This document shows, one piece after another, positions 32,009-50,235 of a DNA stretch of 64,000 bases. A model generated the notes under the pieces. The model was not told where the DNA came from. It saw nothing but the letters and a program-made list of their open reading frames with translations, and ran no database searches. Source of the stretch: Methylacidiphilum caldifontis (GTDB taxonomy: Bacteria; Verrucomicrobiota; Verrucomicrobiia; Methylacidiphilales; Methylacidiphilaceae). Every line of letters begins with the position of its first letter. Position 1 is the stretch's first letter. The stretch covers positions 1,984,001-2,048,000 of the forward strand of contig NZ_CP065957.1 of NCBI RefSeq assembly GCF_017310505.1. Direction: 5' to 3'. The position numbers were made by a program, and so were the translations under genes.

Positions 32009-34321
32009 CTAATATTTTTGGTTTGTAAAATTGAAAATGTTAAATCGTGTTTCCCACTTCGGACTAGAATAGAAAATCGAACTATTCATAACAAATTGTA
32101 AGGGAATCCTTGTCCGGTAGTCATATCCAAGATATTGATCTGACAGAACAAGAGCTCCAATGGTTAGGCCTAATCCAGAATCAAATTTATAGGTCATCAT
32201 CCCACTAAAAACTTGATCTGGCCATCCGATCAAAGCGTATTTTTCAGGGGGAAAAGTCCCATTGTTGTTGAGAGGAAGCCCATAGATTTTTGCAAAATTA
32301 GTGGAATAAGTTTGTGCCATTTCCGGTCCTTCTGGAAAACCACTCCAATCTTCTACTCCTTGCTCAAGAAGATAGCCCATTCTTATCCAGAAATGTCTGT
32401 CAGGTTGAAAAGTTATATTTGCCTCTAGACCTTGAAAAGAAGCTGGGGTTGAAGGAAATTCAATATTTCCCAAAAAAGTGTCTTCTGAAAAACCCGATAT
32501 TGCAAAATAACATTTGTCCCGAAGAAGATTGAGTTTGACTCCACCTTCGATGAGTTGGTTGAGGAGATGAAAAGCGGTGGCTGGAAAAATGGGAGAATAT
32601 CCGCCTCCACCTGAAGCATTGGTAGTATATTGCCAGTTGTAATTAAAATAAAGACTTGTCCAGGAAGTCGGTCTATAAATAATAGCGGCATTGACAAGAG
32701 GATTCAGTTGCTTGGTATTCAATGATTGGAACAAAAAAGTTGGTGTGCCTGGAGGAGTTTGCGAGTGTACAAAATAACTATCTAGTCTTGTTCCGATAAA
32801 AAAGGTGATCTTTTTTTCTATGAGTTCCAGTTGGTGTTGATAAAAAGGAGAAAGCCGAAAGAATTGAGTTTGGTTAGTTTCGTCATTGAGGGGAATAAAA
32901 AAACCTCCTGCGGGAGAACCCGGTATAGGATAGAGACCAAAGTTGGCAAAGTTGTTCGACAAAAGAAAGTTAAATAATTGAGGGTTTTCTGTGAGGGCAT
33001 CCCAGCTATTGCCTAGATATACCTCGGATTGATAGTCGAGAGTACGTTGAAAACGAAACTCAAAACCTGAATCGATAAAATGGGTAAGTTTAGTATTTTT
33101 GAAATCTGAGTCGAAATTGGTTCTGATTTCGGTTCGGTTGTCGATTTCGTAATCACCCTTAAAAACATTGGCTTCGTAAGTTTCAAAACGGATGGCGGTT
33201 TGGTCTTGGTACCAGAAGAAAGTGTTATTGACTATGTCCAAATTGTCGCTTACATGTATCCGTTGAATGACCTGACTCATTGCAAATGTAGCCTGCCCAA
33301 TGTCAGCTGGATATTTTACGGTAGCTCTTCGACTTATAGGCAATTCTGATTTTAAATAGGTGTTAGCCGGGGGATTATTTTCGGTTCCAGCAGTAACCTC
33401 GGAAGGAGGAAGAAATCCAGTAAGATAAAGACCGTTATTGATTAGGGATTGCGTGGGCCTGTTAAGCAAAAGTTCTATGGGCGTGTAATCAGCGGTGCCA
33501 AAATCCGAATAAAAATCAATTTGATAGTTTTCTGTTGGCCTGTAACCAAGAGCGAAATAGAAGTTTTGCTGCTCGTTGCGGACATACTGATAATAGAGCC
33601 TATTATTGATGCCCATATAACTTGCCCTGTAAGCAAGTTTTCCTTTTTCGATTGGTCCGCCTATATCGGCTCCCCACATATAGTTTTCATACATGCCGGT
33701 CGTGTCCCAAACGTTTCCTCTGAATTTATCGAAATAGGTTTGTTTTGTGATGTAATTGACATAACCATTGGATGGCTGTGTGGCGCCGAAAATAGCTCCT
33801 GGAGGCCCTTCGACAAGATCAAAATTTTCTACCATGTTAAAATTCCAAGGTGGGTTGAAAAAACCATCGTTGTTGACGTTTTGTTCAATACCGTTGATGA
33901 AGGTCAAACCAGGTTTCCCCCGAATGATAGGAGAAGACATTTCGTAAAGTTCAGAAGCATCAAACTGGGCTGCGGGAGTTGCCATGGTGATACTCAAGGG
34001 ATCAGGCCAACCTTGAGAACCAATTGCTGCTGATTTCATGAGCGTTTGATTTATTGGAGTCACTGTTCTTGGTGTGTCCATGATGTTGTAGTCTGTTCCA
34101 TAAACAGAACTGATAGATTGCTCGGTTTGAAGGATGGATTCTACTCTGGATTCTTCAACTGTGACTTCTGGAAGGCTTGTAACAGGATAAGAATCTAGAG
34201 GCTCGGTCTTGCATTCAATGGGTGACAAAAAGAATCCCCAAATCAACAGAATAGCCTTAAAGCACAAGTAAAAGGGAGGGGAAAAAAAATTCTTTTTTAA
34301 TGAAAAGAAGGATTTTACCAT
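32009..34321 (-). CDS. TonB-dependent outer-membrane receptor (copy 1)
   Basis: A 770-residue receptor. A signal peptide (hydrophobic to about residue 38) is followed by LPEVTVEE, a likely TonB-box region, then a plug domain with PIIRGKPGLTFINGIEQ and VEGPPGAIFGATQPSNGYVNYITKQ, and a 22-strand barrel ending in FNFTNQKY. It resembles siderophore-type receptors and the second receptor at 56883-59405. It lies downstream of glcF in the same direction, with 348 bases between them that may contain its own promoter. The ligand (metal chelate, vitamin or other) is unknown. No TonB/ExbBD genes are in the window. Confidence 0.88.
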   Translation of the reverse strand: MVKSFFSLKKNFFSPPFYLCFKAILLIWGFFLSPIECKTEPLDSYPVTSLPEVTVEESRVESILQTEQSISSVYGTDYNIMDTPRTVTPINQTLMKSAAIGSQGWPDPLSITMATPAAQFDASELYEMSSPIIRGKPGLTFINGIEQNVNNDGFFNPPWNFNMVENFDLVEGPPGAIFGATQPSNGYVNYITKQTYFDKFRGNVWDTTGMYENYMWGADIGGPIEKGKLAYRASYMGINNRLYYQYVRNEQQNFYFALGYRPTENYQIDFYSDFGTADYTPIELLLNRPTQSLINNGLYLTGFLPPSEVTAGTENNPPANTYLKSELPISRRATVKYPADIGQATFAMSQVIQRIHVSDNLDIVNNTFFWYQDQTAIRFETYEANVFKGDYEIDNRTEIRTNFDSDFKNTKLTHFIDSGFEFRFQRTLDYQSEVYLGNSWDALTENPQLFNFLLSNNFANFGLYPIPGSPAGGFFIPLNDETNQTQFFRLSPFYQHQLELIEKKITFFIGTRLDSYFVHSQTPPGTPTFLFQSLNTKQLNPLVNAAIIYRPTSWTSLYFNYNWQYTTNASGGGGYSPIFPATAFHLLNQLIEGGVKLNLLRDKCYFAISGFSEDTFLGNIEFPSTPASFQGLEANITFQPDRHFWIRMGYLLEQGVEDWSGFPEGPEMAQTYSTNFAKIYGLPLNNNGTFPPEKYALIGWPDQVFSGMMTYKFDSGLGLTIGALVLSDQYLGYDYRTRIPLQFVMNSSIFYSSPKWETRFNIFNFTNQKY

Positions 34322-34669: not shown

Positions 34670-36031
34670 TTATTTAGGAATGGCTAATTTTTCCTGATTT
34701 TTTTGAGGGGTTGGTTCTCCTGGGTTTGCCATCTTATACCATTGGGCAAGAAGGGAAATTGGATGGACTGTCTGGATGTTTAACTGCTGTTTTTTTAAGC
34801 CTTTTTCTATGAAGAGAAGACAACCTGGGTTGGCTGTACAGAGTATGGAGGCAGCTGTTTGTTTAATTTTTGCTATTTTTTTATTGAGTAGTTTATGTGC
34901 CATCTCAGGTTGTAAAATGTTATATATGCCCGCACTACCGCAACAGTGATCGGACTCTTCCAGTTCCACAAAGCGGATAAATGGCAAGGAGTTAAGTATG
35001 ATTCTAGGTTCATTCTTTATCTTTTGCCCATGACAAAGATGACAAGCATCATGATAGGTAACTACGGGTTGAGGTTGAGAAGTATCTGTTAATTTAGGCT
35101 TGGAAAAGCCTATCTTTACAAGCCATTCATGGATATCGAATACTTTTTTATCCCATTCTTCGGCTTTCTTTCTCCAAGGGGTTCCTGGAGGGAAGAGATT
35201 TGAGAAATGTTTTAGATGAGATCCACACCCAGCAGCATTTGTTATCAGAGCGTCCAGTTCATTTAAAGGGAAAGCATCCATTAATTTTTGAGCTAGCAGT
35301 TGGGCTGTTTTCAGCTCCCCGTTGTGGGCATGAAGTGAGCCACAACAACCCTGATGTGGCGGACAGATCACTTCGCAACCATTGTAAAGCAGGACATCTA
35401 CGGTATCCCTGTTAATTTTCGAATAGACCAGGTCTTGGACACAACCTGTCAGAAGTCCGACTTTCCATCGAACCTTTGTATGGAAGGGAGTTTCTCGGGG
35501 CTGAATAAGTTCAGAAGAAAAGTGTGAGGCTATAGGGGGTAGTTGAGCCATCATATCTTTTAATTTGGCTGGAATAAAGGGTAAGTATGGGACCAACCGA
35601 TCTAGCCCGATGCTTTGATAAACTCGAAGCATTTTGCCAAAGGTTCTCAATCTGAAGGATGAGCGGAAGAGAAATCGGATCAGTGCAGTTCTTGCTATTT
35701 GCCTTAAGGGATTGTTTAAAATTTGAGATTTTTCAATGTCTTGTCTTGAGGCTTCAAATAAGGTTTTGTAATCAACCCCTACGGGACAAGCTGTCTGGCA
35801 AGCAAGGCAGCCAAGGCAGAAATAAAGTTCATGAGCAAATAATTCAGTCAGATCCATTCTTTTTTCAGCGATGGCCCTCATGAGAGAAATCCTTCCCCTG
35901 GGGCTATTGCGTTCTATCTTTGTTTCTTGATATGTTGGACAGCTTGGAAGACACATTCCACAATGAATGCATTTTTGAATGATTGTTGGATCAAGAGACA
36001 GAAGTGAAAATCTGGAATTTAAGTTGTTCAT
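34670..36031 (-). CDS. glcF: Glycolate/D-lactate oxidase iron-sulfur subunit GlcF
   Basis: A 453-residue iron-sulfur protein. Two 4Fe-4S motifs lie near the N terminus, CIHCGMCLPSCP (near residue 18) and CLGCLACQTACP (near 72). Two CCG-type cysteine-rich domains follow, marked by HQGCCGSLHAHNGE (near 235) and DHCCGSAGIYN (near 365). It accepts electrons from the flavin subunit encoded eight bases upstream and passes them to the respiratory chain. In this locus D-lactate from the glyoxalase step is the most likely substrate. GlcE is absent. Confidence 0.88.
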   Translation of the reverse strand: MNNLNSRFSLLSLDPTIIQKCIHCGMCLPSCPTYQETKIERNSPRGRISLMRAIAEKRMDLTELFAHELYFCLGCLACQTACPVGVDYKTLFEASRQDIEKSQILNNPLRQIARTALIRFLFRSSFRLRTFGKMLRVYQSIGLDRLVPYLPFIPAKLKDMMAQLPPIASHFSSELIQPRETPFHTKVRWKVGLLTGCVQDLVYSKINRDTVDVLLYNGCEVICPPHQGCCGSLHAHNGELKTAQLLAQKLMDAFPLNELDALITNAAGCGSHLKHFSNLFPPGTPWRKKAEEWDKKVFDIHEWLVKIGFSKPKLTDTSQPQPVVTYHDACHLCHGQKIKNEPRIILNSLPFIRFVELEESDHCCGSAGIYNILQPEMAHKLLNKKIAKIKQTAASILCTANPGCLLFIEKGLKKQQLNIQTVHPISLLAQWYKMANPGEPTPQKNQEKLAIPK

Positions 36032-36039
36032 TCAGATGA

Positions 36040-37431
36040 TCAATCAAAAATTTTCCCCGGATTTAAAAGATTATCGGGGTCGAGGATTTTTTTTATGCTT
36101 TTAAGCAGTTGGAACTCTTCCTTGTTATATTGATAAGCTAGGAATTCTTTTTTAGCTAAACCCACACCATGTTCTCCAGTGATCGTTCCTCCCAGTTTTA
36201 TGGCATAAAGAAAGATCTCTTTCATAGCCCTGTAGACTTTTTCCATTAAATCTTCGTTTTGCTCATCGGCTAAAAAAACAGGATGCAGATTGCCATCGCC
36301 CATGTGTGCATAAACGGCTATTTCGACTCCATATTGGCTTGAGATTTGTTGGATTTTACGGATCATTTCAGCAAGCGCACTTCTTGGAACCGTAATATCT
36401 TCTAAAAGAACGGTAGGAGCTTTTCTAGCGAGGGCTGAGAATGCAACTTTTCGTGCCTTCCACAGTTGCTCTTGATCTTTAGGTTCTTCAGCGATTTTGA
36501 TGTCCAATGGATTATAAAGCTGGAGAACTTTAAGTATGCAAACGATTTCGTCACGGACAGCTTGAGGATGACCATCGGATTCAATGAGCAATACCGCTTC
36601 ACTTTCTTTAGGAAAACCAGCGGGATTGTATTGTTCAATGCAATCGATGGTTTTGCGATCAAGAAACTCCAAGGCACTAGGGATTAATGCTGCATTGATG
36701 ATTGCGGAGGTGGCTTCAGCCGCTGCTTCCAAGGTAGAGAAAGAAGCTAAAATAACCTGTCTTTCTTGTGGCTTTGGAATTAAACGGAGCAATACCTTGC
36801 TGACAATGCCAAGTGTCCCTTCAGAACCGATAAAAAGATCTTTCAAGGAGTAGCCTGCGGAGTCTTTCATGCATTTGTTGCCCAACCATAGGAGCTGCCC
36901 GGTTGGCAAAATGACTTCTAGACCAAGAACATAATTTCTTGTCACCCCATACTTTAGACCTCTGATTCCACCCGAATTATGGCCAACATTACCCCCGATG
37001 GTTGAAATTTTATAAGATCCTGGATCTGGAGGATAAAACAAAGAAAGTTTATCGGCTTCTTCCTGCACAGATTGAGTCGTGACACCGGGTTCAACCAAAA
37101 TAGTTAAATTGTTGCGATCTATTTCCAAAATTTTATTCCACTTGGCCATAGAGAGAACAATGGAGTTTTTTTGAGGGACGACCGCTCCACTCAAGCTTGT
37201 TCCAGAACCCCTAGGAAGGATACAAGCATGATTGGCTTTGGCCCATTGCAAAATCCATTGGATATCTGCGATAGAAGAAGGGAATAATACAGCAAGGGGT
37301 GGCTGATAAAAGGTGGCCGTGGCATCAAAGCTATAGGGAATAAGATCTTCTTTAGAGATGAGTAGGGAGCTTTTAGGAAAATGATCGATCAAGCTCCTTA
37401 GAGCCTCATCTGTAGGTTCTTTGCTTACCAT
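36040..37431 (-). CDS. glcD: FAD-linked D-lactate/glycolate dehydrogenase subunit GlcD
   Basis: A 463-residue flavoprotein of the VAO/PCMH family. The FAD-binding part contains LPRGSGTSLSGAVVP (near residue 97), VEPGVTT, DPGSYKISTIGGNVGHNSGG (near 140), and GSEGTLGIV. The C-terminal substrate domain has AHMGDGNLHP near 375 and GTITGEHGVGLAKK near 420, typical of D-lactate and glycolate dehydrogenases. It would turn D-lactate into pyruvate together with GlcF. It lies between the GMC dehydrogenase gene and glcF on the same strand with short gaps. Confidence 0.9.
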   Translation of the reverse strand: MVSKEPTDEALRSLIDHFPKSSLLISKEDLIPYSFDATATFYQPPLAVLFPSSIADIQWILQWAKANHACILPRGSGTSLSGAVVPQKNSIVLSMAKWNKILEIDRNNLTILVEPGVTTQSVQEEADKLSLFYPPDPGSYKISTIGGNVGHNSGGIRGLKYGVTRNYVLGLEVILPTGQLLWLGNKCMKDSAGYSLKDLFIGSEGTLGIVSKVLLRLIPKPQERQVILASFSTLEAAAEATSAIINAALIPSALEFLDRKTIDCIEQYNPAGFPKESEAVLLIESDGHPQAVRDEIVCILKVLQLYNPLDIKIAEEPKDQEQLWKARKVAFSALARKAPTVLLEDITVPRSALAEMIRKIQQISSQYGVEIAVYAHMGDGNLHPVFLADEQNEDLMEKVYRAMKEIFLYAIKLGGTITGEHGVGLAKKEFLAYQYNKEEFQLLKSIKKILDPDNLLNPGKIFD

Positions 37432-37462: not shown

Positions 37463-39043
37463 TCAAAGCCGTAAAGCTTTCATTTCCTTTATAATATATT
37501 CAGCTTGACGGATAGCCAGAGCGGATATGGTCAGTGTAGGATTTTCACAAGCCCCCGTAGGAAAGACACTCCCATCAGAAATGAAAAGGTTTTTTACTTC
37601 ATGGCATTGGCCATAAGAATTGGTGACCGAAGTTTCCGGATCATTTCCCATGCGACATGTTCCTAGATTGTGAGTGGCAGGATAGGGTGGGGTATCGTAG
37701 ACTTCTATGGCTCCTGCAGCTTCATAGATTTCCCTTGCTTTTTTCCAACCAAATTCGCGCATGCGCTTATCGTTAGGATGATCATTAAAGGTAATAACCG
37801 GGATGGGCATACCAAATCGATCTTTTTTTTCTTTGTGCAAAGTCACCCCGTTTGAGAGCTGAGGAAGATCCTCTCCAACTATCCACATGCCAGCGACATG
37901 GGTGTAGTTATCCATCAAGTTCTGGAGTGGTTTGCCCCATAAAGCTTTTGCCTGGGAAGTGGAGGTAGCGGGTCCTGGTCTAATAAAAACCGATAGAAAT
38001 GCGGGTCCTAGCATTATGGTTTCGAGATGAAATCCACCCACAAATCCTCTTTTAGGTTCATTTTTTGCAAACTCATCGATAAGTCCCATCATGGTTATGC
38101 CTTTATAAGCATGGACAGGATTAGGAAATAGGGCATAAGAAGAAGCAGTTAAATGGCGCATGTAATTTTTACCCACCATGCCGCTACCATTGGCTAACCC
38201 ATGAGGGAATTGTGAAGATTCAGAATTGAGCAAGAGTCTTGCCGTTTCAATGCTGTTGCAAGCTACACAGATAACTTTTGCCTTGATTTGATGAAGTTTT
38301 CCTTGAGCATCCGCATAAATGACTTTGTTTGCTCTTTTGCTGGAATCTGTTTCTATCCGAATGGCTTGACATTGCGGTCTTAAATCCAAGTTTCCCGTTT
38401 GCTCCGCTTTAGGAATGGCTTCGTAGAGAACATTCCATTTCGCTTTAATGGTACAGCCCTGGAAACAAAAACCACATTGGTCACAAGGAGGTCGCCCATC
38501 GTAAGGCAGGCTATTAATGGCCATAAAGCCAGCTGTCGCCTTAATTCCAAGTTTTTCAGCTCCTTTTTTCATAACCAGAAAATTGGTGTTTCCAGGTTGA
38601 AAAGGCATGATGCGACCAGAAACTCCAAGGACTTTTTCAGCCTTTTCGTAGTAAGGCAAGAGTTCTTCAAGGCGGATTGGCCAATCCACAAGGTTGGCTT
38701 GGGGAATATCACCATAGATCGATTTGACTTTAAACTCCCATGGTTGAATCCGTAATGATGCTCCTGCCCAATGGAGGGTTGTTCCTCCAACAGTTTTACA
38801 TGTCCAGGTAGCAAGTCCTGTTATATCTTTTCCTTGAGTTTCTCGAGGATCTAACCATGCTGTTTTCAAAAACATGGCCCATTCATCATTTTCAAAATCT
38901 TTTTCAGGGACAAGCCGCGGGCCAGCCTCAAGAGCAGTGACTTTGACTCCTTGAAGGCAGAGCTCTCTGATCAGATTGCCGCCACCGGCTCCTGTTCCTA
39001 TTACACACACATCAACTGTTTCATTTGAAGAGAGAACACCCAT
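37463..39043 (-). CDS. GMC-family FAD dehydrogenase (candidate acetol/alcohol dehydrogenase)
   Basis: A 526-residue flavoprotein. The FAD Rossmann motif is VIGTGAGGGNLIREL near residues 14-28. A cysteine-rich CDQCGFCFQGC segment near 190 and a C-terminal HNLGTCRMG...DGSVFPTGACENPTLTISALA (near 450-505) are typical of the large subunit of gluconate/sorbitol-type membrane dehydrogenases. The His/Asn pair for alcohol oxidation lies in the latter block. No signal peptide is visible, so it is probably exported with its Tat-carried small subunit, encoded just upstream. Oxidation of acetol to methylglyoxal is inferred from the neighbours. A cytochrome subunit is not present. Confidence 0.82.
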   Translation of the reverse strand: MGVLSSNETVDVCVIGTGAGGGNLIRELCLQGVKVTALEAGPRLVPEKDFENDEWAMFLKTAWLDPRETQGKDITGLATWTCKTVGGTTLHWAGASLRIQPWEFKVKSIYGDIPQANLVDWPIRLEELLPYYEKAEKVLGVSGRIMPFQPGNTNFLVMKKGAEKLGIKATAGFMAINSLPYDGRPPCDQCGFCFQGCTIKAKWNVLYEAIPKAEQTGNLDLRPQCQAIRIETDSSKRANKVIYADAQGKLHQIKAKVICVACNSIETARLLLNSESSQFPHGLANGSGMVGKNYMRHLTASSYALFPNPVHAYKGITMMGLIDEFAKNEPKRGFVGGFHLETIMLGPAFLSVFIRPGPATSTSQAKALWGKPLQNLMDNYTHVAGMWIVGEDLPQLSNGVTLHKEKKDRFGMPIPVITFNDHPNDKRMREFGWKKAREIYEAAGAIEVYDTPPYPATHNLGTCRMGNDPETSVTNSYGQCHEVKNLFISDGSVFPTGACENPTLTISALAIRQAEYIIKEMKALRL

Positions 39044-39083: not shown

Positions 39084-39662
39084 TTACCAGCTCAGTTGGT
39101 CGAATCCTTTGTTAACATACCCTCCAAGATACTTCCCATTATCATTCATAGAGGGTCCAGGATATCCAATTGCAGCCCATACTCCATGATTATTGTAGAA
39201 AACAGAAAGAATCTGATTGAGAAGATCTTGGAAAATCTTTTGGGATTCAGTTTGTTGGATAATCTCCGTCCCTTCAGAAGAAGAAAGAGAATAGAAATCT
39301 TTTCTTGATGTTTTTTGAGCATACCGTTGAAGCAAATCGAGGTAAGCTTTTAGTTTCTCTTGTTTCTTCACATCTGCGTCTTTTGACCATGAATGAAGAA
39401 GGGAATCAAAGGTGTTGTTCCTAGCCTTTTCAAAGGCTTCTCCCTGATGAGGAACAACCAGTGCTATAAATTGTCTGAGGTTTTTTTGTTGAAGATCACT
39501 AAGAAATCCATTTTGAAAACCGTTTTCAACCAGTGGTGAAGTCGCCAAAAAAGAGTTCTTTGGGCTACAACAACTTGAGCTAAATAACTGTTCGCTTTTT
39601 CCTATAAAGAAGAAAGCCCCAAAAAAATAGAAAAAGAATTTTCTACGTGAAATGGTTTTCAT
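39084..39662 (-). CDS. Gluconate 2-dehydrogenase subunit 3-like protein with Tat signal
   Basis: A 192-residue small subunit. The N terminus contains SRRKFFFYFFGAFFF, a twin-arginine signal. The mature part matches the Gluconate_2-dh3 family: LRQFIALVVPH near residue 63, a helical middle, and a final WAAIGYPGPSMNDNGKYLGGY block. Such subunits carry the cofactor-loaded GMC subunit across the membrane. The GMC gene follows 40 bases downstream, so the two very probably form one periplasmic dehydrogenase. Confidence 0.82.
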   Translation of the reverse strand: MKTISRRKFFFYFFGAFFFIGKSEQLFSSSCCSPKNSFLATSPLVENGFQNGFLSDLQQKNLRQFIALVVPHQGEAFEKARNNTFDSLLHSWSKDADVKKQEKLKAYLDLLQRYAQKTSRKDFYSLSSSEGTEIIQQTESQKIFQDLLNQILSVFYNNHGVWAAIGYPGPSMNDNGKYLGGYVNKGFDQLSW

Positions 39663-39690: not shown

Positions 39691-40089
39691 TTATTCCTTT
39701 TTATTATCTTTTTGATCTTCTTGAATAAGTTCGATTTCATAACCATCAGGGGCATCAATGAATGTAAATAAAAGGCCATTTTCTGCTCTTTGTACGCTAT
39801 CTGTAAACGGCCATCCCATCTTGTTACATTTTATGCGTGCCTCTTCGAGATCTTTAACTGAGAAAGCAAGATGAGTTAAATCGGGTGGAACAATGACTTT
39901 TCCACTATCTGGAAATTCACAAAGTTCAAGGAGACATTCACTTTCAGGAGCTTTGAGAAAAACCAATTTAGAACCTCTTGGTGAAACTATCCTACCCACT
40001 TCTTGAAGGCCAAGAAAATTAACAAAATAATAAATAGCTTTTTCCAAATTTGAGACTCGATATCTTACATGTAGAAAACGTTCAATCAT
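39691..40089 (-). CDS. Glyoxalase I-like VOC protein
   Basis: A 132-residue lactoylglutathione lyase-type protein. I chose ATG 40089, preceded by AAGGAGG, because the longer frame to 40140 would begin upstream of the sigma-54 promoter's expected transcript start. Metal ligands align with glyoxalase I: His7 (LHVRYRV), Glu55 (LLELCE), His73 (THLAFSV) and Glu120 (DGYEIELI). It would convert the methylglyoxal-thiol adduct toward D-lactate. It is the first gene of the minus-strand operon. Confidence 0.85.
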   Translation of the reverse strand: MIERFLHVRYRVSNLEKAIYYFVNFLGLQEVGRIVSPRGSKLVFLKAPESECLLELCEFPDSGKVIVPPDLTHLAFSVKDLEEARIKCNKMGWPFTDSVQRAENGLLFTFIDAPDGYEIELIQEDQKDNKKE

Positions 40090-40116: not shown

Positions 40117-40132
40117 AGCAGGAAATGTGCCA
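40117..40132 (-). promoter_or_regulatory. Sigma-54 promoter of the glyoxalase-GMC-glcDF operon
   Basis: Read on the minus strand the site is TGGCACATTTCCTGCT: TGGCAC at -24, ten bases between GG and GC, and CTGCT at -12. The expected start is near 40106, leaving a short leader with the ribosome site of the glyoxalase gene. It faces away from an equivalent site for pmoC. Confidence 0.8.
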
Positions 40133-40178
40133 TTTATCATTATAGCTAGGAATGGAAAGAGCTACTTCCATGATAATG

Positions 40179-40221
40179 ATGCAGATGATGCATTTGGCTA
40201 TGTACTATGATGCATTATGCA
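40179..40221. promoter_or_regulatory. Two inverted repeats, candidate activator-binding sites
   Basis: ATGCA-N5-TGCAT at 40179-40193 and TGCAT-T-ATGCA at 40211-40221 use the same half-site. They lie roughly 110-155 bases upstream of the expected pmoC start and 70-115 upstream of the opposite start, the usual place for sigma-54 activator sites. They could serve both promoters. Confidence 0.5.
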
Positions 40222-40305
40222 ACGGTACATGAAAATATTATAAGTTTTATTAGGCGGCTATCCAATAAGTGACTGATCTACAAAGAATAAAAAATCATTT
40301 ATTTT

Positions 40306-40321
40306 TGGCACGCATTTTGCT
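40306..40321 (+). promoter_or_regulatory. Sigma-54 promoter of the pmoCAB operon
   Basis: TGGCACGCATTTTGCT matches the sigma-54 consensus TGGCACG-N4-TTGCT with exact GG-N10-GC spacing. The expected start is near 40332, about 55 bases before pmoC, whose strong ribosome site AAGGAGG lies at 40374-40380. Confidence 0.9.
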
Positions 40322-40386: not shown

Positions 40387-41250
40387 ATGGCTAATGAAAG
40401 AGCAGCAACTGTAGGAGCAATAGATCTATCAGCTATTGCTGAACAGATACCTAAAAAGGAATACTTCAATAATTGGAGATTCTATATTTATTGCATACTG
40501 ATATCGCTCTTTTATGGAGCTTGTATGCTTTATCAAAGAGCCTTTGCAATCACCAAGGGCATAGATTATACCTCGCAGGACTTCCAGACTTATTGGATGA
40601 ACCTATTCTGGGGTATAACCATAATGAATGTAATCATATGGACCCTGACATGGGGTTGGATCTGGTATGTATATAGGGATAGGCATTTGGAACAACTTAG
40701 CCCAGCTGAGGAGTTGAAGAGGTGGTATTCCAACTGGTTATTGACTCTGGGAGTCTATGCGTGGTGCTTGGTTTGGGCTGTATTTTTTGTTGAGCAGGAT
40801 GGGGTATGGCATTCATCCATGATCAGAGACACGGAGTTTACTCCGAGTCACATTTTTAATTTTTATCTGAGTTGGCCCATTTTTATTAATTTTGGGGTTG
40901 CCGGCTTGATGCTTACAAGAACAAGGCTCCCTGTAATGGGTAAAAAATGGTTGCTTCCTTTGGTCATGGAAGTAGCTTGGCCAATCATGTTTATTCCTTT
41001 AATTGGGGAAAATGAATGGGGACACAGTGCTTGGATTTTAGAAGAATGGTTTGCGGCTCCTTTGCATTGGACCTTTGTGCCTTTTGCGTGGGCGGCCGTG
41101 TGGTTTTTAGGCAATGGATTTGACATGTTTCCAAGAATAGCGGCTGTCTTGAAGGCAACCTATTTTGGTGAAAATTGCATGTCGGCTGCTGAGGCGATGG
41201 AGAATCCAGAGGAAGCTACAAATCCCGTACATACCCTTCCTGGTATGTAA
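40387..41250 (+). CDS. pmoC: Particulate methane monooxygenase-family subunit C (PmoC3 type)
   Basis: A 287-residue membrane subunit with about six spans. Both proposed copper sites known from PmoC structures are conserved: Asp138, His142 and His155 (DGVWH...SH) and Asn209, His213 and His227 (NEWGH...LH). Thus the likely catalytic region is intact. It heads a pmoCAB operon under a sigma-54 promoter. Linked genes suggest a ketone rather than methane as substrate, as reported, from memory, for the third pmo operon of Methylacidiphilum. Confidence 0.93.
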   Translation: MANERAATVGAIDLSAIAEQIPKKEYFNNWRFYIYCILISLFYGACMLYQRAFAITKGIDYTSQDFQTYWMNLFWGITIMNVIIWTLTWGWIWYVYRDRHLEQLSPAEELKRWYSNWLLTLGVYAWCLVWAVFFVEQDGVWHSSMIRDTEFTPSHIFNFYLSWPIFINFGVAGLMLTRTRLPVMGKKWLLPLVMEVAWPIMFIPLIGENEWGHSAWILEEWFAAPLHWTFVPFAWAAVWFLGNGFDMFPRIAAVLKATYFGENCMSAAEAMENPEEATNPVHTLPGM

Positions 41251-41340: not shown

Positions 41341-42090
41341 ATGCAAACACAGACGATAAGAACTTCCCCTGAACTGCAAAAGGAAGGATTAGCGGTTGGG
41401 AAAAGGATTCAATTTGTAGCGTGGGTAATTATTGGAATGACTGTAACTGTAGGAACATTTGCTTCTCAGTCTCTTCTAGAGGGAGACTGGAGCTTCTGGA
41501 TAGATTGGAAAGATCGTCGGTATTTTCCAATTCTAGGGGTGATTTCCTACATGTTAATGTTGGTCAGTGTTCAGGCAGCATGTTGGATTAAAGCTAGGCT
41601 TCCCGTAGGGATGACCTTGTGTGCTGTAGGAATCAATCTTTGGCAGTGGTTTGAAAGGTATGTCAATTGGTGGGGATGGTTCGGTTATCCAATGAATGAA
41701 TTGTTCCCGGAGACGGTTATTCCTTGTGCGATTGCTGCCGATTGCGTCCTTCTTTTATCAAGGAAGCTTCTCTTGACTTATCTATTTGGTGCCTATGCTT
41801 TTGCCTTGACTTTTTATCCGGCTAACTGGGTCATGATTGCCCCCTTTCACCAACCTATAGAAGCTTTAGGCCAAACATTAAGTCTTGCAGATTATATCGG
41901 CTTTTCTTACGTGCGCTCCGCTATTCCTGAATATTTAAGAATGATCGAAAGCGGTACACTGCGTACTTTTGAAGGAGGAGCTTTAGGGCCAGCCATATTT
42001 TTCAGTGGGGTTGTCGGTATCTTCATTTATGCGATTTTCTGGTGGATTGGAGATCAGTGCACAAGAAATCGTTGGGTGAAGAAAATCTAA
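41341..42090 (+). CDS. pmoA: Particulate methane monooxygenase-family subunit A (PmoA3 type)
   Basis: A 249-residue membrane protein with about seven spans and the PmoA layout: WSFWIDWKDRRYFP near residue 52, INLWQWFERYVNWWGWFGYPMNE near 98, PANWVMIAPFHQP near 160, and a SYVRSAIPEYLRMIE...GTLRTF block near 200. It surrounds the PmoC subunit in the enzyme trimer. The ribosome site AAAGGAG is eight bases upstream. As the usual phylogenetic marker it could place this operon precisely among verrucomicrobial paralogues. Confidence 0.94.
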   Translation: MQTQTIRTSPELQKEGLAVGKRIQFVAWVIIGMTVTVGTFASQSLLEGDWSFWIDWKDRRYFPILGVISYMLMLVSVQAACWIKARLPVGMTLCAVGINLWQWFERYVNWWGWFGYPMNELFPETVIPCAIAADCVLLLSRKLLLTYLFGAYAFALTFYPANWVMIAPFHQPIEALGQTLSLADYIGFSYVRSAIPEYLRMIESGTLRTFEGGALGPAIFFSGVVGIFIYAIFWWIGDQCTRNRWVKKI

Positions 42091-42127: not shown

Positions 42128-43369
42128 ATGAAAATAAAAAATTGGTTCATCATTCCAATTGTTTTGGCTTTTAGTCTAATGCTAGCAACAATTGCTTCTA
42201 ACTCTCTTTTTGCTTCCGGAATAGGCGAAAGGGCACAGGAAGCAATTCTAAGAATGCGAACGGCTCAATTTTATGATGTTCGGTTTTCATCGAATCATCT
42301 GAAAGTGGGCGAAGATCTCGTGGTCACGGGAAAAGTCATGATATTGCCCATATGGCCACATGAACTTGGATTTTCGGGTATTGGTTATATCAATTTTTTT
42401 GAACCTGGGCCAAGGCTAGTTCGAAAAGAAACCGTGGTCAATGGCCAGCCGGTGTTTTCAAGCATGATTATAAAGCTTGGGGATACCTATGATTTCAAGG
42501 AAGTGTTAACTGCCCGACAGCCAGGAACCTGGCCCGTGGGGGTAACCATGAATATTAAAGATATCGGGCCAATTGTAGGTCCTTCCATCAAGGTTACCAT
42601 CGATCCCTCTTCAACTCCATATACTAACACCGTACAAACGTTGACGGGTCAAAGCGTTAACTTAGAGAACTATGGATTGAGTAGGGCCATGGGTTGGTCT
42701 TTTCTGTGGGTTTTGTTAGGTATTGGGTGGCTTTATTATTGGCTTATTTTAAAACCCACAGCCCCAAGGCTTGGATTGGCTTACTTAGAAAAAGAAGATG
42801 AACTGGTTACTAAGCAAGATCAAAAGCTTGGGTTATTGTTTCTTGGTCTTGTTATCGTCCTTGTTTTTGGTGGTGCTTTTATTGCCTCCAAACAATTTCC
42901 TATAGTCGTTCCTTTACAAAAAACATTTGTAAGGATTGATCCCTTACCCCAGGAACCGACGTATGTGGAAGCTAAGGTCAATAAAGCAACCTATAATGTC
43001 CAGCAGAGAAGTCTAGATTTTGATTTAGTAGTCACCAATAAGGGAACAGATAAGGTATATTTAAGACGGTTTCAAACAGCAAATGTAGCCTTTTTGAATC
43101 CAGCAGCTCCCGACAATCAATGGCCTGCAGATTCACCGGAAGTCAATGGAGGAGATCTTCAAATAACCCCAAATGACCCCATTTTGCCGGGTGAAACCAA
43201 GCAATTGCACATTAAAGCTCAGGGAGCAGCTTGGGAAGTTGAAAGGCTGTCTACCATTTACAAGGAGTCGGCTTCTCGATTTGGTGGACTGCTCTTTTTT
43301 GGGGATACTCAAGGCCATAGAAATATTATTGCTATAGCTGATCAGTTTATTGTTCCAGTGTTTCAATAA
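42128..43369 (+). CDS. pmoB: Particulate methane monooxygenase-family subunit B (PmoB3 type)
   Basis: A 413-residue subunit with a signal peptide (to about residue 30), two periplasmic cupredoxin domains and two membrane helices (near 192-212 and 235-255). The three histidines that bind copper in proteobacterial PmoB are missing: the RMRTIH-type motif is RMRTAQFYD (Gln47), and the HVH pair is PVG (Pro136, Gly138). The LTGQSVNLENYG block is conserved. Loss of this site is known for verrucomicrobial PmoB and agrees with catalysis in PmoC. Confidence 0.93.
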   Translation: MKIKNWFIIPIVLAFSLMLATIASNSLFASGIGERAQEAILRMRTAQFYDVRFSSNHLKVGEDLVVTGKVMILPIWPHELGFSGIGYINFFEPGPRLVRKETVVNGQPVFSSMIIKLGDTYDFKEVLTARQPGTWPVGVTMNIKDIGPIVGPSIKVTIDPSSTPYTNTVQTLTGQSVNLENYGLSRAMGWSFLWVLLGIGWLYYWLILKPTAPRLGLAYLEKEDELVTKQDQKLGLLFLGLVIVLVFGGAFIASKQFPIVVPLQKTFVRIDPLPQEPTYVEAKVNKATYNVQQRSLDFDLVVTNKGTDKVYLRRFQTANVAFLNPAAPDNQWPADSPEVNGGDLQITPNDPILPGETKQLHIKAQGAAWEVERLSTIYKESASRFGGLLFFGDTQGHRNIIAIADQFIVPVFQ

Positions 43370-43380
43370 TACACCAATCC

Positions 43381-43998
43381 ATGAAAAGACTATATAAATA
43401 TGGATATATAACACTGTTGTCTATAGCTATATGTTGTTGCGATCTGTTAAGAGGTGAAAACATAGTAAAATGTGGTTTTGTGGAAAATAATTATTTTGCA
43501 GCTCATTTTACTATATATTCAGAATATAACATGTTAGATATAAAATCCTGCTTTATAAACGATTATTGCAATAAGAGCCCGCACAGCGGAATGGTGTCAT
43601 TGGTGTATGACATCATTGGGATAGGAAACATACTTGAAAATCATAAAATAAACATAGGTATATCATACAAAAAAGAACCCGGGAGACAGATATACTCTTG
43701 GTGCGAAACCCCTGTAAATGGTGTCATATGGAAAAGGGTATATCTGAATCCTGGGTCTTATGTATCTACAATAAATATATTTTGTGATAACGATATAATA
43801 GAAAAATTAAATAAGTTAGGTATCTTTGTTAATGAAAGATATGTTAATTTTAGTTTTCCTTTCCAAATAGAAAATGATCATGTTTTATTGCAGATAAGCT
43901 ATAAAGTAATATATGTATTATTTATAACTATAGCTATATGCATATTTATTGGTGCTTTATGGAGAATGGTTCAGAATAGTTATAAGTATAACGAATAA
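43381..43998 (+). CDS. Exported membrane-anchored protein, PmoD-like in topology
   Basis: A 205-residue protein starting 11 bases after pmoB. It has a signal peptide (to about residue 25, with a CCC cluster), a periplasmic part with several scattered cysteines, and a single C-terminal membrane span (VLFITIAICIFIGALW) with a short basic tail. This is the layout and the genomic place of PmoD/AmoD copper proteins, but I do not recognise the PmoD copper motif, so identity is unproven. Codon use is strikingly AT-rich compared with pmoB. Confidence 0.55.
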   Translation: MKRLYKYGYITLLSIAICCCDLLRGENIVKCGFVENNYFAAHFTIYSEYNMLDIKSCFINDYCNKSPHSGMVSLVYDIIGIGNILENHKINIGISYKKEPGRQIYSWCETPVNGVIWKRVYLNPGSYVSTINIFCDNDIIEKLNKLGIFVNERYVNFSFPFQIENDHVLLQISYKVIYVLFITIAICIFIGALWRMVQNSYKYNE

Positions 43999-44014
43999 AC
44001 AATGGAGTATAGTT

Positions 44015-46462
44015 ATGAGTATAAAAGGTGAGGTGTGTAACAGTACGGATTATGTGTTATGGTTTAACCAGATTACTATAGAAGACATTGCTATAGTGGG
44101 CGGGAAAAATGCATCTCTGGGTGAGATGATGAAAGAGCTATCTCCATTCGGTATCAACATTCCTAATGGATTTGCCATTACTTCGTTAGCCTATGAACAA
44201 TTTATAAATTTTAACAACATTCGTGATGAAATTAATAACAAAATAAGACAAATAAATTATTCAGATTTATCTAGCATAAAAGAAAATAGCCAATACATCA
44301 GGAACCTCATTATTAATTCTAAGATTCCATATAAATATAAAAAAGAAGTCATAACTGCCTATAAATATCTATCTAAGGATGCAGAAGTCGACGAGGTTGA
44401 CGTAGCAGTTCGTTCCAGTGCTAATATTGAAGATCTTCCTTTAGCCAGTTTTGCCGGTCAGCTCGATACCTACTTGAATATAAAGGGAGTCGATCCTTTG
44501 TTTAATGCGATAAAGCATTGTTATGCATCCCTTTATACAGAAAGAGCAATATTGTACAGGAAGGAAATGGGATATGAAAATGATAACATATCCATGTCGG
44601 TGGGTATCCAGAGAATGGTAAGATCTGATCTAGCATGTTCGGGTGTAATGTTTACTATTGATCCTAAATCTGGGTTTAAAAAGATTGTATTGATTAGTGC
44701 TTCGTATGGGCTGGGAGAAAGCATTGTACAAGGTATTGTTAATCCTGATGAGTATTATGTATTCAAGCCCACGCTGATGAAGGGATATAAGCCCATTATA
44801 CAAAAAAGAATAGGAAGTAAAGATATTAAGCTTATCTATGATGTACAGAGTGAAAATGTTTTAAACAATGTTTATGTAAAAAATGTTTCTGTTCCCGAAG
44901 ATGATAGAAATAAATACGTATTATCAGACAATGAAATTCTTCTTCTTAGTCAATGGGCATGTCTCATAGAAGAACATTACACTCGTAGAAATGGCCGCTA
45001 TACCCCCATGGATATAGAATGGGCAAAAGATGGGTTAAGTGACAAACTATTTATCCTTCAAGCTAGGCCGGAAACTGTTCATAGAGACAAATCCAAAAAA
45101 ACAATCGAAATCTTTCAAATAAAAAGACAGGGGTCTCTCCTTGTTGAGGGTAAAGCGATAGGTGAAAAAATATCGCAGGGAAAAGTTAGAGTTATCAAAG
45201 ATTTACAACAACTTGATCAGTTTCAGCCTGGAGAAGTTCTTGTTGTTGAAAAAACCGATCCAGACTGGGAACCAATCCTTAAGAAAGCGGCAGCGATTGT
45301 TACCGATAGGGGTGGAAGAACCTGCCATGCGGCTATTGTCAGTAGAGAACTGGGTGTTCCAGCGGTCGTTGGGACCGAAACTGCAACAAAAGTATTAAGA
45401 GATGGAATGGTTGTTACGGTTTGTTGTGCTGAAGGAGAAATCGGTAAGGTCTACGAGGGAGAAATCCCCTATACGATCGAAAAGATTAACCTCGTAGAAA
45501 TCCCATCCACTAAGACAAAAATCTTAATTAATATTGGAAATCCTCAAGAAGCCTTTGATTTTTCTTTCCTTCCCAACGACGGGGTTGGTCTTGCTCGTGA
45601 GGAATTTCTCCTGACCAATTACGTCAAGGTCCATCCTATGGCTTTGGTTAATTTTGAAAAGCTAAGGGAAGGAACAGAAAAAACAAAAATACGTCAATTA
45701 ACCCAGCATTATCCCCAAAAAACAGATTACTTCGTAGAAAAGCTTGCCGAAGGCATCGGGATGATCGCTGCAGCCTTTTACCCGAAGGATGTCATTGTCA
45801 GGCTTAGTGATTTTAAATCTAATGAGTATGCCAATTTGTTGGGAGGAGTGGACTTTGAGCCCGTTGAAAGAAATCCAATGATCGGGTTTCGAGGTGCTTC
45901 ACGCTACTATCATCCTTATTATCGTCAAGGTTTTGCCCTGGAATGTATGGCCATTAAAAAGGCCAGGGAATCCTTTGGGCTCATCAATATTAAAGTGATG
46001 ATCCCGTTTGTGAGGACCGTAGAAGAAGGGAAAAAAGTTATTGAAGAGTTGGCCAAAAATGGACTCAGAAAAGGAGAAAATGGCCTTGAAATATACATGA
46101 TGTGCGAGGTGCCCAGTAATGTCATTTTAGCCGAGGCATTTTGTGAAATATTTGATGGCTTTTCTATAGGATCCAACGATTTGACTCAATTTGTTCTCGG
46201 TGTTGATAGGGATTCTGAAATTATTTCTTCCCTCTATGATGAGCGTAACGAGGCAGTTAGGAGAATGATCGCTTCTGTGATTCAGGTTGCGAAAGAGAAA
46301 AAAAAGAAAATTGGTATTTGTGGGGAAGCGCCTAGTAATTACCCGGATTTCCTAGAGTTTATTATCAAAGAAGGCATAAACAGCATATCTGTTAATCCTA
46401 ATTCTGTATACACAACACTTTTAAAAGTTTCGGAAATAGAAAAAAATATAGAAAAAACATAG
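44015..46462 (+). CDS. ppsA: Phosphoenolpyruvate synthase
   Basis: An 815-residue PEP synthase. I chose ATG 44015, with GGAG eight bases upstream and GGKNASLGEM near residue 29, matching the family start; the longer frame overlaps the previous gene. The swivelling phosphohistidine domain shows GGRTCHAAIVSRELGVPAVVG near 430, and the C-terminal PEP barrel has GFRGASRYYHP and SIGSNDLTQ. It makes PEP from pyruvate and ATP, needed when carbon enters as pyruvate. It follows pmoCAB, supporting C3 growth. The first 350 codons are noticeably more AT-rich than the rest. Confidence 0.93.
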   Translation: MSIKGEVCNSTDYVLWFNQITIEDIAIVGGKNASLGEMMKELSPFGINIPNGFAITSLAYEQFINFNNIRDEINNKIRQINYSDLSSIKENSQYIRNLIINSKIPYKYKKEVITAYKYLSKDAEVDEVDVAVRSSANIEDLPLASFAGQLDTYLNIKGVDPLFNAIKHCYASLYTERAILYRKEMGYENDNISMSVGIQRMVRSDLACSGVMFTIDPKSGFKKIVLISASYGLGESIVQGIVNPDEYYVFKPTLMKGYKPIIQKRIGSKDIKLIYDVQSENVLNNVYVKNVSVPEDDRNKYVLSDNEILLLSQWACLIEEHYTRRNGRYTPMDIEWAKDGLSDKLFILQARPETVHRDKSKKTIEIFQIKRQGSLLVEGKAIGEKISQGKVRVIKDLQQLDQFQPGEVLVVEKTDPDWEPILKKAAAIVTDRGGRTCHAAIVSRELGVPAVVGTETATKVLRDGMVVTVCCAEGEIGKVYEGEIPYTIEKINLVEIPSTKTKILINIGNPQEAFDFSFLPNDGVGLAREEFLLTNYVKVHPMALVNFEKLREGTEKTKIRQLTQHYPQKTDYFVEKLAEGIGMIAAAFYPKDVIVRLSDFKSNEYANLLGGVDFEPVERNPMIGFRGASRYYHPYYRQGFALECMAIKKARESFGLINIKVMIPFVRTVEEGKKVIEELAKNGLRKGENGLEIYMMCEVPSNVILAEAFCEIFDGFSIGSNDLTQFVLGVDRDSEIISSLYDERNEAVRRMIASVIQVAKEKKKKIGICGEAPSNYPDFLEFIIKEGINSISVNPNSVYTTLLKVSEIEKNIEKT

Positions 46463-46472
46463 GAGGTATATA

Positions 46473-47255
46473 ATGAAATCAAAAAAACGACATTTAAGTC
46501 TAAAACATAAAGTAAGTTATGTTTTGAGTATTATATCAGTTTTAATATTATACAAATCAGTACTTCACGCTGAATCAAATAGTAATATATCTGACATAAG
46601 AGAAGATGAAAACCAGCAAAAATCATATGTGGAACATAGGAAGCAACTTTTGGAAAATAATGAAATCAACAAGCCAAAGCCTTATCATCTTTTTGTTCTA
46701 GGTGGTTTTGGCCCTGCCTTTCCCTATTCTGGATCATCCACATTAAATGGAATGACGACAGATTTTGCAAAAAACTATTCCTATGTTCCCGCCGTCGAAG
46801 TAGGAGTTCTTTGGTATGATCCATCCCGATGGAAACATCTGACATTTGGTATCGCATTCGTGGGGGCGTTTTTAGGGAACCAAAGTTTGTCCTATGTTCA
46901 AGGATTACAAAAAATGGATAATAATTCTGCCATTGGGGGATTTTTAGGACTGTCCGCTATTGTTGGATATGTTACGGGAAAGTTTGTTCCCTACATAGGA
47001 GTGGCTGGTGGAGGAGTCGTGTTGAGTCTAGAAAGCAGTAATGCATATCTAGGTAGTGTTTGGGGCAGTTGGTATTCCCCGGTTCTTGGGTTTAATTATT
47101 TGATTGATAAACATTGGTTTACGGGAGCTACACTATTTTGGCTCTTTGATCAGAATCTCAATGGGTATCATAATAGCAAAGCAGGTATTAATGCTTTTAA
47201 TCTTAATCAAGTATATGAGCCGCTACTTACAGCAAATATAGGATTTATGTTTTAA
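46473..47255 (+). CDS. Outer-membrane beta-barrel protein of unknown function
   Basis: A 260-residue protein with a Sec signal peptide (cut near HAES, residue 35), a charged linker, then alternating hydrophobic strands (GVLWYDPSRW, FGIAFVGAFLG, FVPYIGVAGGGVVLSLES) ending in GFMF, with a terminal aromatic as in outer-membrane barrels. The length suggests eight to ten strands. AGGAGG lies seven bases upstream. It is the last gene before a strong hairpin, so it belongs to the pmoCAB-ppsA operon. It may be a porin or anchor; no family is recognised. Confidence 0.65.
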   Translation: MKSKKRHLSLKHKVSYVLSIISVLILYKSVLHAESNSNISDIREDENQQKSYVEHRKQLLENNEINKPKPYHLFVLGGFGPAFPYSGSSTLNGMTTDFAKNYSYVPAVEVGVLWYDPSRWKHLTFGIAFVGAFLGNQSLSYVQGLQKMDNNSAIGGFLGLSAIVGYVTGKFVPYIGVAGGGVVLSLESSNAYLGSVWGSWYSPVLGFNYLIDKHWFTGATLFWLFDQNLNGYHNSKAGINAFNLNQVYEPLLTANIGFMF

Positions 47256-47422: not shown

Positions 47423-49229
47423 CTTCCTTATAATTTTGAGCAAAATTTAGGCAGACAAAGCACTTAGGGCCAACAAAGTAGGACGTAATATGTGAATAAA
47501 TGTGAATTATTTTTGTTGGTTATTTTCTCATATTTTGACATACTGTAGGCATGTATTTGCAGGAGGTGCGTACCTACCAGAAAGGCAAGATCTATCGGTC
47601 CTATCTCGTCCGGGAGTCCTACCGAGTGGGCAAACAGGTCAAGACAAGGATCCTGGCTAATCTGACTCGGATGCCTGAAGAAGTCAGGGATGCGGTCAGG
47701 GCAATCTTGCAGGGGAAGAAGCTTGTTCCCCTGGAGGAGTGGGAAGCCCCGGATGCTTTGGATTACGGGGGCCTGGCAGTCCTCGAGCAAGCTTGGCAAC
47801 GATTCGGTTTGGATCAAGCTCTTGGCGGAGTCAAATCGGAACGGAAACGGAAGATTTTGAAGGCGATGATCTACGGGCGGATTCTTTTTCCCTCATCCAA
47901 GCTTGCCCTGCGGGAGGAAGCCCGGGGGACACTCCTGGCCAAGGCTTGTGGGTTGGAGGAGGATGACCTGGAGGAAGAAGATCTCTACCAAGCAATGGAT
48001 GGACTCGGGTGGCTTTGGAGCAGAATCGAGAAGAAGCTCTACGAGGAATCTCAACCGACTGGAGCAAGCCTGGTGCTCTATGATCTATCCAGTGTATATT
48101 TTGAAGGGGATGGTCCAGCTGGCTTGGCCCAATATGGATACAGCAGGGATCATCGGCAGGATAGGCTGCAGGTTCTTCTTGCCGTCGCTACGGATAGTCG
48201 GGGCATTCCAATTCATGTGGAGGTGCTTCGAGGGAACCGGGCGGATAGTACGACCCTGACGGGGCTTTTGGTTACCCTGCGACGAAGGTTTGGGATCCAG
48301 GAAGCGACCTTTGTCTTCGACGGGGGGATGAAGAGCCGGTGGAACCTGGAGATATTGACAGGCCTAGAACTCAGGTACGTGACTCGGGCAACTCAGGCGA
48401 AGTTGCAGGAGATTGTCGGTAGCCTTCCTGAAGACCGCCAGCTTTGGTTTACAGATCGGACTCAGGTTCTGGAGATCGAACAGCAGGGAGTTCGTTATGT
48501 TATTGCCGGAGGGGAGTGGCGAGCGCAACGGGATAGGGAGCGACGGGAAAGACGGATCGAGCAAGGAGAAGAGCTGCTGCGCCAAATAGCACGATCGATG
48601 CGGAAGGGAGTGGATCCGGTCAATCTGGGCAGCCGGGTCGGCCGGGCGCTCCAGAAAATCCAGGCGCATAAATACTTTCGGTACGGGGTTGACGCCAAAG
48701 GCCGGTTCTGGTGGAAGCTCGATAGGGATCGGGTCAAGGAAGAAGAGGCAATCGATGGGTGGTATCTTTTGGAAACTAACCTTCCCTCGGCCAAAGCTTC
48801 GGATCAACAAGTCCTCACGCACTACAAGAGGCTTGCAGAAGTTGAGTCAGCCTTTTGCGAGCTCAAAAGTTACCTGGAAATCCGTCCGGTCTATCACTGG
48901 CGACCGGACCGGGTTCGTAACCACATAAGGCTCTGCTTCTTGGCCTTCTGGATTAGCGCCCGGCTCGGAACCGAATGGGTAGAGAAGGGTTTTACCGAAG
49001 AAGTTCCCAAAGTGCTCCGCCGCTTGCAATCAATCCGCTTGGTCCAACTCTCTAGCAAGGGAAAGCCTGTAACCTGGCTTTTATCCCGGATCCCTACAGA
49101 GCTCAACGCATTGCTTCAAAAACTCGACCTGCTACCGCTGTTTGCTCATCCGCCCAAGTGGGTTATGTAGGCAGAATAAAAATGTTATCTCGTTCTGCTG
49201 CAACAACTTATATTTTAGAGTTTCGGAAG
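47423..49229 (+). mobile_element. IS1634-like insertion sequence, intact copy
   Basis: Ends are estimated by comparing three copies: similarity to the element at 52305 starts at CTTCCTTATAATTTTGAG and stops near the GGAAG after the transposase. The outer five bases (CTTCC/GGAAG) are inverted; a longer terminal repeat or a target duplication was not established. It is GC-richer than its surroundings. Confidence 0.7.
47551..49170 (+). CDS. IS1634-family transposase, full length
   Basis: A 539-residue DDE transposase. The N terminus (VRTYQKGKIYRSYLVRESYRVGKQVKTRILANL) is typical of the IS1634 group. Catalytic acids are visible in LYDLSSVYFEG (near residue 170), FVFDGGMKSR (near 250), and the AEVESAFCELKSYLEIRPVYHW region (near 430) with the conserved glutamate. 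The GGAGG in the start region is inside the gene, so the ribosome site is weak. The copy is intact and may be active. Confidence 0.85.
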   Translation: MYLQEVRTYQKGKIYRSYLVRESYRVGKQVKTRILANLTRMPEEVRDAVRAILQGKKLVPLEEWEAPDALDYGGLAVLEQAWQRFGLDQALGGVKSERKRKILKAMIYGRILFPSSKLALREEARGTLLAKACGLEEDDLEEEDLYQAMDGLGWLWSRIEKKLYEESQPTGASLVLYDLSSVYFEGDGPAGLAQYGYSRDHRQDRLQVLLAVATDSRGIPIHVEVLRGNRADSTTLTGLLVTLRRRFGIQEATFVFDGGMKSRWNLEILTGLELRYVTRATQAKLQEIVGSLPEDRQLWFTDRTQVLEIEQQGVRYVIAGGEWRAQRDRERRERRIEQGEELLRQIARSMRKGVDPVNLGSRVGRALQKIQAHKYFRYGVDAKGRFWWKLDRDRVKEEEAIDGWYLLETNLPSAKASDQQVLTHYKRLAEVESAFCELKSYLEIRPVYHWRPDRVRNHIRLCFLAFWISARLGTEWVEKGFTEEVPKVLRRLQSIRLVQLSSKGKPVTWLLSRIPTELNALLQKLDLLPLFAHPPKWVM

Positions 49230-50040: not shown

Positions 50041-50235
50041 TAAAAAAAACAAATCAAAGAATGGCGAAGAAGATCGAAAAATTTATGAGGATAAAAAAAA
50101 GAGAATCCATTAAAGTCATTCAATTTTATATGGTTAGCTGGAAATTTTTGAATTGCGCTAGAAATAAAATTTGATTGATCATCATTAATGTTTTAATAGG
50201 TTCATAAAAGAAAATTATTGTATCTTTAATGTAAG

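Follow-up and report, generated by a model that had tools for sequence, protein, structure and literature searches.

A probable sigma-54 divergon with a linked candidate activator at the C3-induced copper monooxygenase locus of Methylacidiphilum

Introduction

In a methanotroph, soluble methane monooxygenase is controlled by a sigma-54 promoter, that of mmoX, and by a linked activator, MmoR (PMC5874634). In Thauera butanivorans, the promoter P-bmo of a short-chain alkane monooxygenase is served by BmoR, a sigma-54 activator that responds to C2-C8 n-alkanols, while in Mycolicibacterium chubuense NBB4 the copper monooxygenase genes hmoCAB adjoin a gene encoding an AcoR-like regulator (PMC8784404). 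The locus described here shares with MmoR/mmoX the association of a (predicted) sigma-54 promoter and a linked activator gene with a methanotroph monooxygenase, and with hmoCAB the proximity of a copper monooxygenase and an AcoR-like regulator. It differs from MmoR/mmoX, where the enzyme is a diiron protein, transcription runs in one direction and C3 compounds are not the inducers; from BmoR/P-bmo, where the enzyme is again a diiron protein and a divergent downstream operon is not described; and from hmoCAB, for which no sigma-54 promoter was reported.

PMO3, encoded by pmoCAB3, is an unusual pMMO homologue that hydroxylates acetone and whose regulation had been left open. In strain IT6, C3 substrates induce pmoCAB3 14-40-fold and the 12 genes with the strongest induction all lie within the cluster; sigma-70 promoters were predicted there with BPROM and CNNpromoter, with pmoC3 under independent control (PMC8630023). 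In strain SolV, transcript levels rise from 8-500 TPM on methane to 1,500-47,000 TPM on C3 substrates, i.e. 20-330-fold (PMC12235487). Both halves of the cluster are co-induced on 2-propanol, acetone and acetol (PMC8630023, PMC12235487). Our literature search, which covered the main texts of openly available papers, found none joining sigma-54 to pmoCAB3, PMO3 or, a review aside, CuMMO; the sole mention of sigma-54 in PMC3404531 concerns amtB.

Results

The window, i.e. the whole 64,000-nucleotide stretch analyzed here, belongs to a genome of 2,254,698 bp assembled as a single contig. Its gene order glcF-glcD-gmc-gmcB-gloA | pmoCAB3-pmoD-ppsA-orf1-transposase is that of IT6_09370-09425 (PMC8630023), including the transposase past orf1. 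The left-hand operon, on the minus strand, comprises gloA (glyoxalase/VOC family, 39691-40089, PF00903), gmcB (gluconate 2-dehydrogenase subunit 3 family, 39084-39662, PF13618), gmcA (GMC oxidoreductase, 37463-39043, PF00732/PF05199), glcD (FAD-linked lactate/glycolate oxidase subunit, 36040-37431, PF02913/PF01565) and glcF (Fe-S subunit, 34670-36031, PF02754/PF13183). The right-hand operon, on the plus strand, comprises pmoC3 (copper membrane monooxygenase subunit C, 40387-41250, PF04896), pmoA3 (41341-42090, PF02461), pmoB3 (42128-43369, PF04744), pmoD (43381-43998, recognized by its position and its published name IT6_09410), ppsA (PEP synthase, 43949-46462, PF01326) and orf1 (46473-47255), which is co-induced and of unknown function. 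Orthologs of pmoC3 (91-95% identical) are present in all four other Methylacidiphilum genomes.

The start of gloA was set at 40089 from its Shine-Dalgarno sequence and alignment; the mechanical ORF start at 40140 was rejected, as the longer ORF would overlap its own promoter. The true start of ppsA probably lies further in than 43949, since its orthologs align from residue 29-33. In one relative (G004), the best tblastn stretch for ppsA (one stretch shown) spans residues 445-836 only, which may reflect a broken or frameshifted gene in that genome. Two large proteins of the window, of 770 and 840 residues (32009-34321 and 56883-59405), share about 31% identity; the former has no Pfam match, and another relative (G001) likewise has a member of the family near its cluster.

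The spacer between gloA and pmoC3 is 297 bp long and contains two outward-pointing elements that match the -24/-12 consensus of sigma-54 promoters: TGGCACATTTCCTGCT (40117-40132, minus strand), which would serve the gloA-gmcB-gmcA-glcD-glcF operon from a start predicted at about 40105, and TGGCACGCATTTTGCT (40306-40321, plus strand), which would serve the pmoCAB3-pmoD-ppsA-orf1 operon from a start predicted at about 40332 (starts were assumed to lie 12 nt past the -12 GC). As the preliminary description had it, both have an exact GG-N10-GC spacing, here within TGGCAC-N5-TTGC, and both face outward; the two sites are 173 bp apart. Beyond them, gloA has a short leader with GGAGG, and pmoC3 one of about 55 nt with AAGGAGG.

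To gauge the significance of these matches, we searched the 2.25-Mb genome for TGGCACN5TTGCW with at most one mismatch and obtained 57 matches, versus 15 for a reversed-pattern control. Only three matches were perfect: the pmoC3 site, a site upstream of P-II/glutamine synthetase-like genes (glnB-glnA) and a site upstream of a NifA-like gene in a nif-type region (gene names at these last two loci were read off translated starts). Since glnB-glnA and nif-type loci are classic sigma-54 targets, they act as internal positive controls for the consensus. In a spacer of the same composition, the chance of a hit with at most one mismatch on both strands is about 5e-5. A scan of the window alone at two mismatches was uninformative (22 matches found versus 25 expected). 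The genome encodes one rpoN (C-terminal domain, E = 2.8e-58). As for other pmoC genes, sigma-54 control of the copies besides pmoC3 was discarded, no site with up to two mismatches being present in the scanned loci, and no sigma-54 site was found at the locus of a distant gammaproteobacterial PmoC relative. A second outward-facing pair of sigma-54 sites exists in the same genome (872887, minus; 873027, plus; L112:4888-5043), next to a NifA-like activator gene within a nif-type region.

We then compared the spacer in five Methylacidiphilum species genomes, that of the window and four others. Both sigma-54 elements occur at the same place in all five, so that the two promoters pass the scan of relatives that the preliminary description had called for. 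The spacer itself measures 291-300 bp and is largely unalignable in detail: outside the conserved features, 60 of 252 alignment columns (24%) are invariant. By comparison, 13 of 16 columns are invariant in the gloA-side element (Fisher p = 5e-6 versus the rest of the spacer) and 10 of 16, TGGCA and TGCT included, in the pmoC3-side element (Fisher p = 0.0017). Conservation and the genome counts led us to reject a chance origin of the motifs.

Two further blocks stand out between the promoters: AATGATGCAGATGATGCA (40175-40192, plus strand; 14 of 18 columns invariant, Fisher p = 6e-6) and ATGATGCATTATGCAAC (40207-40223, plus strand; 12 of 17 columns invariant, Fisher p = 1e-4). They have in common the pattern ATG-N2-GC-N(2 or 4)-ATGCA, and their centres are 31.5 bp, or three helical turns, apart in all five species. 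An earlier reading of this region as two inverted repeats with ATGCA half-sites thus holds in that the blocks are real and conserved, but they are imperfect as strict inverted repeats. Their placement agrees with that reading: in the five species, the blocks lie, relative to the predicted gloA start, at -75 to -78 and -107 to -110 and, relative to the predicted pmoC3 start, at -111 to -129 and -142 to -160. The putative activator sites are thus at -75 to -160 from both starts, in keeping with the roughly 80-160 bp upstream expected of such sites. The exact block 2 pattern occurs once elsewhere in the genome, at 403155, and was discarded as a further target because it sits inside a coding region.

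The candidate activator for both promoters is a 660-residue protein encoded at 50236-52218 (plus strand), with the AcoR-type layout of sigma-54 activators (bEBPs): an AAA+ sigma-54 interaction domain (PF00158, E = 2e-62) is followed by a C-terminal Fis-type HTH (PF02954, E = 5.5e-12). A putative N-terminal GAF domain scores 18.0 bits, below the Pfam cut-off of 22.4; it exceeds the cut-off in three of the four full-length homologues scanned. AlphaFold modelled the sensor region with a confidence too low to allow a fold search (pLDDT 46), and a sequence search against solved structures gave no match. The sigma-54 contact loop reads GTFTGS (residues 414-419) instead of GAFTGA, with F-T-G retained; the five species share this variant, as does the closest homologue sampled, that of Peribacillus.

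Orthologs of the activator, 65-79% identical, are present in the four other Methylacidiphilum genomes; no full-length ortholog was found outside the genus, and PMO3-type PmoC has the same phylogenetic range. In all five species the activator gene lies within 10 kb of the cluster, while its position and orientation vary between three arrangements: past the pmo operon and co-oriented with it (window), past the pmo operon but convergent (G002), and past the glc operon (G001, G003 and G004). That the linkage is kept through rearrangement is good evidence of a functional tie to the cluster. Upstream of the activator gene (around 50150-50235), the five species share a TTTGACT-like box together with a -10-like stretch rich in AT, which suggests that this gene has its own sigma-70 promoter. 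A transposase gene (47551-49170, PF01609) lies between orf1 and the activator gene and fits IT6_09425, reported as C3-induced. The list of induced genes ends at IT6_09425, directly downstream of orf1 (PMC8630023), and the induction of this transposase fits read-through of one long transcript that would start at the pmoC3 promoter.

Full-length homologues of the activator (28-36% identity) were found in a tblastn search against plasmids; the comparison loci all come from plasmids and are therefore a biased sample. Their neighbourhoods largely concern C3 metabolism, with either a propane/acetone diiron monooxygenase or an acetone carboxylase. A diiron monooxygenase accompanied by VOC, gluconate-2-dehydrogenase-3/Tat and GMC genes is found in Methylocella tundrae, Bradyrhizobium CB82, Azospirillum oryzae, A. 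thermophilum, Indioceanicola, Skermanella and Ponticoccus, a diiron monooxygenase alone in Aminobacter, a VOC-GMC set with gloB and dld in Sphingobium, and an acetone carboxylase in Methylorubrum CM4, Ancylobacter, Cupriavidus and Acidibrevibacterium; the exceptions are Beijerinckia, Bradyrhizobium 186, Agrobacterium, Paracoccus (acetoin) and Rhizorhabdus. The acetone carboxylase (acx) loci resemble the window in that a homologous activator is linked to acetone use, but there acetone is carboxylated and not hydroxylated.

Three of these plasmid loci, from A. oryzae, A. thermophilum and Indioceanicola profundi, have the same paired layout as the window: a monooxygenase operon diverges from a VOC - gluconate-2-DH-3/Tat - GMC operon, with paired outward sigma-54 sites, two tandem dyads and a linked activator of the GAF/AAA+/Fis type, the GAF domain of the window protein being putative. 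Each of the three spacers contains exactly two sigma-54 sites (at most two mismatches), outward-facing and 166-208 bp apart. Between them, each Azospirillum species has dyads TGTC-N9-RACA at a distance of 33 bp, or three turns; of the Indioceanicola dyads, the second fits this pattern and the first, 33 bp earlier, is TGTCCCATTGCGGGACG. Window gmcA is 52-54% identical to the GMC proteins of alphaproteobacterial propane clusters. There are also differences: the monooxygenase is a soluble diiron enzyme (SDIMO) in place of the copper membrane enzyme, the dyads are of the TGTC-N9-RACA type and not ATG-N2-GC...ATGCA, the VOC-GMC operon is led by a c-type cytochrome, unlike that of the window, and the regulators, about 30% identical to that of the window, are not its sister group.

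Discussion

The best account of these observations, and in our view a very probable one, is that the 297-bp spacer is a sigma-54 divergon whose two promoters are opened by a C3-sensing activator, most likely the linked 660-residue protein. Sigma-54 RNA polymerase would wait at the two outward-facing promoters. The activator, most likely the 50236-52218 protein, would respond to a C3 signal, be it acetone, 2-propanol, acetol or a product, and as a higher oligomer would bind both tandem sites (40175-40223) and loop the DNA to either side, thereby opening both promoters. Acetone hydroxylation (pmoCAB3, pmoD and ppsA) would then rise from a low basal level together with the conversion of acetol to pyruvate (gmc, gloA and glcDF). 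Here we infer the binding, the looping, the signal and the choice of activator; as regards binding of the 40175-40223 sites by this protein, gene linkage is circumstantial, and the GTFTGS loop and the low GAF score speak against the scheme. The expression data agree with it: a sigma-54 divergon predicts joint control with a very low basal level and a high ceiling, and it would explain both the near silence of the operon on methane and its strong induction on C3 substrates.

Could the cluster be driven by sigma-70 promoters instead, the sigma-54-like words being coincidental or minor? Sigma-70 promoters were indeed predicted for it (PMC8630023), and the spacer does contain a fair sigma-70-like site, TGGATA-16-TATAAT (40264-40237, minus strand). 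However, the tools used modelled sigma-70 promoters and were thus blind to sigma-54, sigma-70-like sites are no commoner in the spacer than in shuffled sequence, and the stretch with the TATAAT-type site is unconserved among relatives while both sigma-54 elements are kept in every species, so that we find this explanation hardly credible. A different objection accepts the divergon but assigns it to another activator, for instance of the response-regulator type, or to one protein per side. The genome has seven strong sigma-54 activator domains to choose from, four of them in proteins that resemble response regulators of the receiver-domain kind, one in a NifA-like protein and one in a protein without an N-terminal domain; the AcoR-like sensor region is found only in the 50236-52218 protein. 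This linked protein is also the only one that has the same phylogenetic distribution as the PMO3 locus and remains next to it despite rearrangement, and its homologues are tied to C3 loci. The fixed spacing of the two conserved enhancer-like blocks fits a single regulator. We therefore regard a different or a split regulator as unlikely. The suggestion made at the outset that one activator could switch both halves of the locus is thus supported by the shared conserved site pair, the conserved linked activator gene and the published co-induction.

A sigma-54 divergon with a ligand-sensing activator is a known mechanism. What is new, as read from the sequences, is that it apparently serves a copper membrane monooxygenase and that diiron loci in another phylum have a matching layout. 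In this heat- and acid-loving methane-eating bacterium, the two predicted switches and their putative shared control site sit between the first enzyme of acetone oxidation and the finishing enzymes, and the analysis names promoters and a candidate sensor for testing. We lean, if only slightly, towards the broader view that two or more phyla have a C3-sensing sigma-54 divergon, made up of an activator, tandem sites three turns apart, paired promoters and a VOC-GMC acetol module, in which the monooxygenase is interchangeable; Methylacidiphilum, with a copper membrane monooxygenase in the slot of the diiron enzyme, would provide the first such enzyme under sigma-54 control. This gives a testable evolutionary picture in which the switch and the downstream steps stay constant and the first enzyme is swapped between unrelated copper and iron oxygenases.

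The regulator tree bears on how the resemblance arose: the Methylacidiphilum proteins pair with that of Peribacillus (99/99), outside the clade of all sampled diiron-linked regulators, and this tree does not support a recent transfer from Azospirillaceae of the divergon as a whole. The shared layout could stem from an older common origin or from convergent assembly. Note finally that in Acidibrevibacterium, from acid mine water, a single 68-kb plasmid carries a VOC-GMC operon along with the locus of the activator and acetone carboxylase, where a sigma-54 site directly follows the activator gene (L136:18500-25742).
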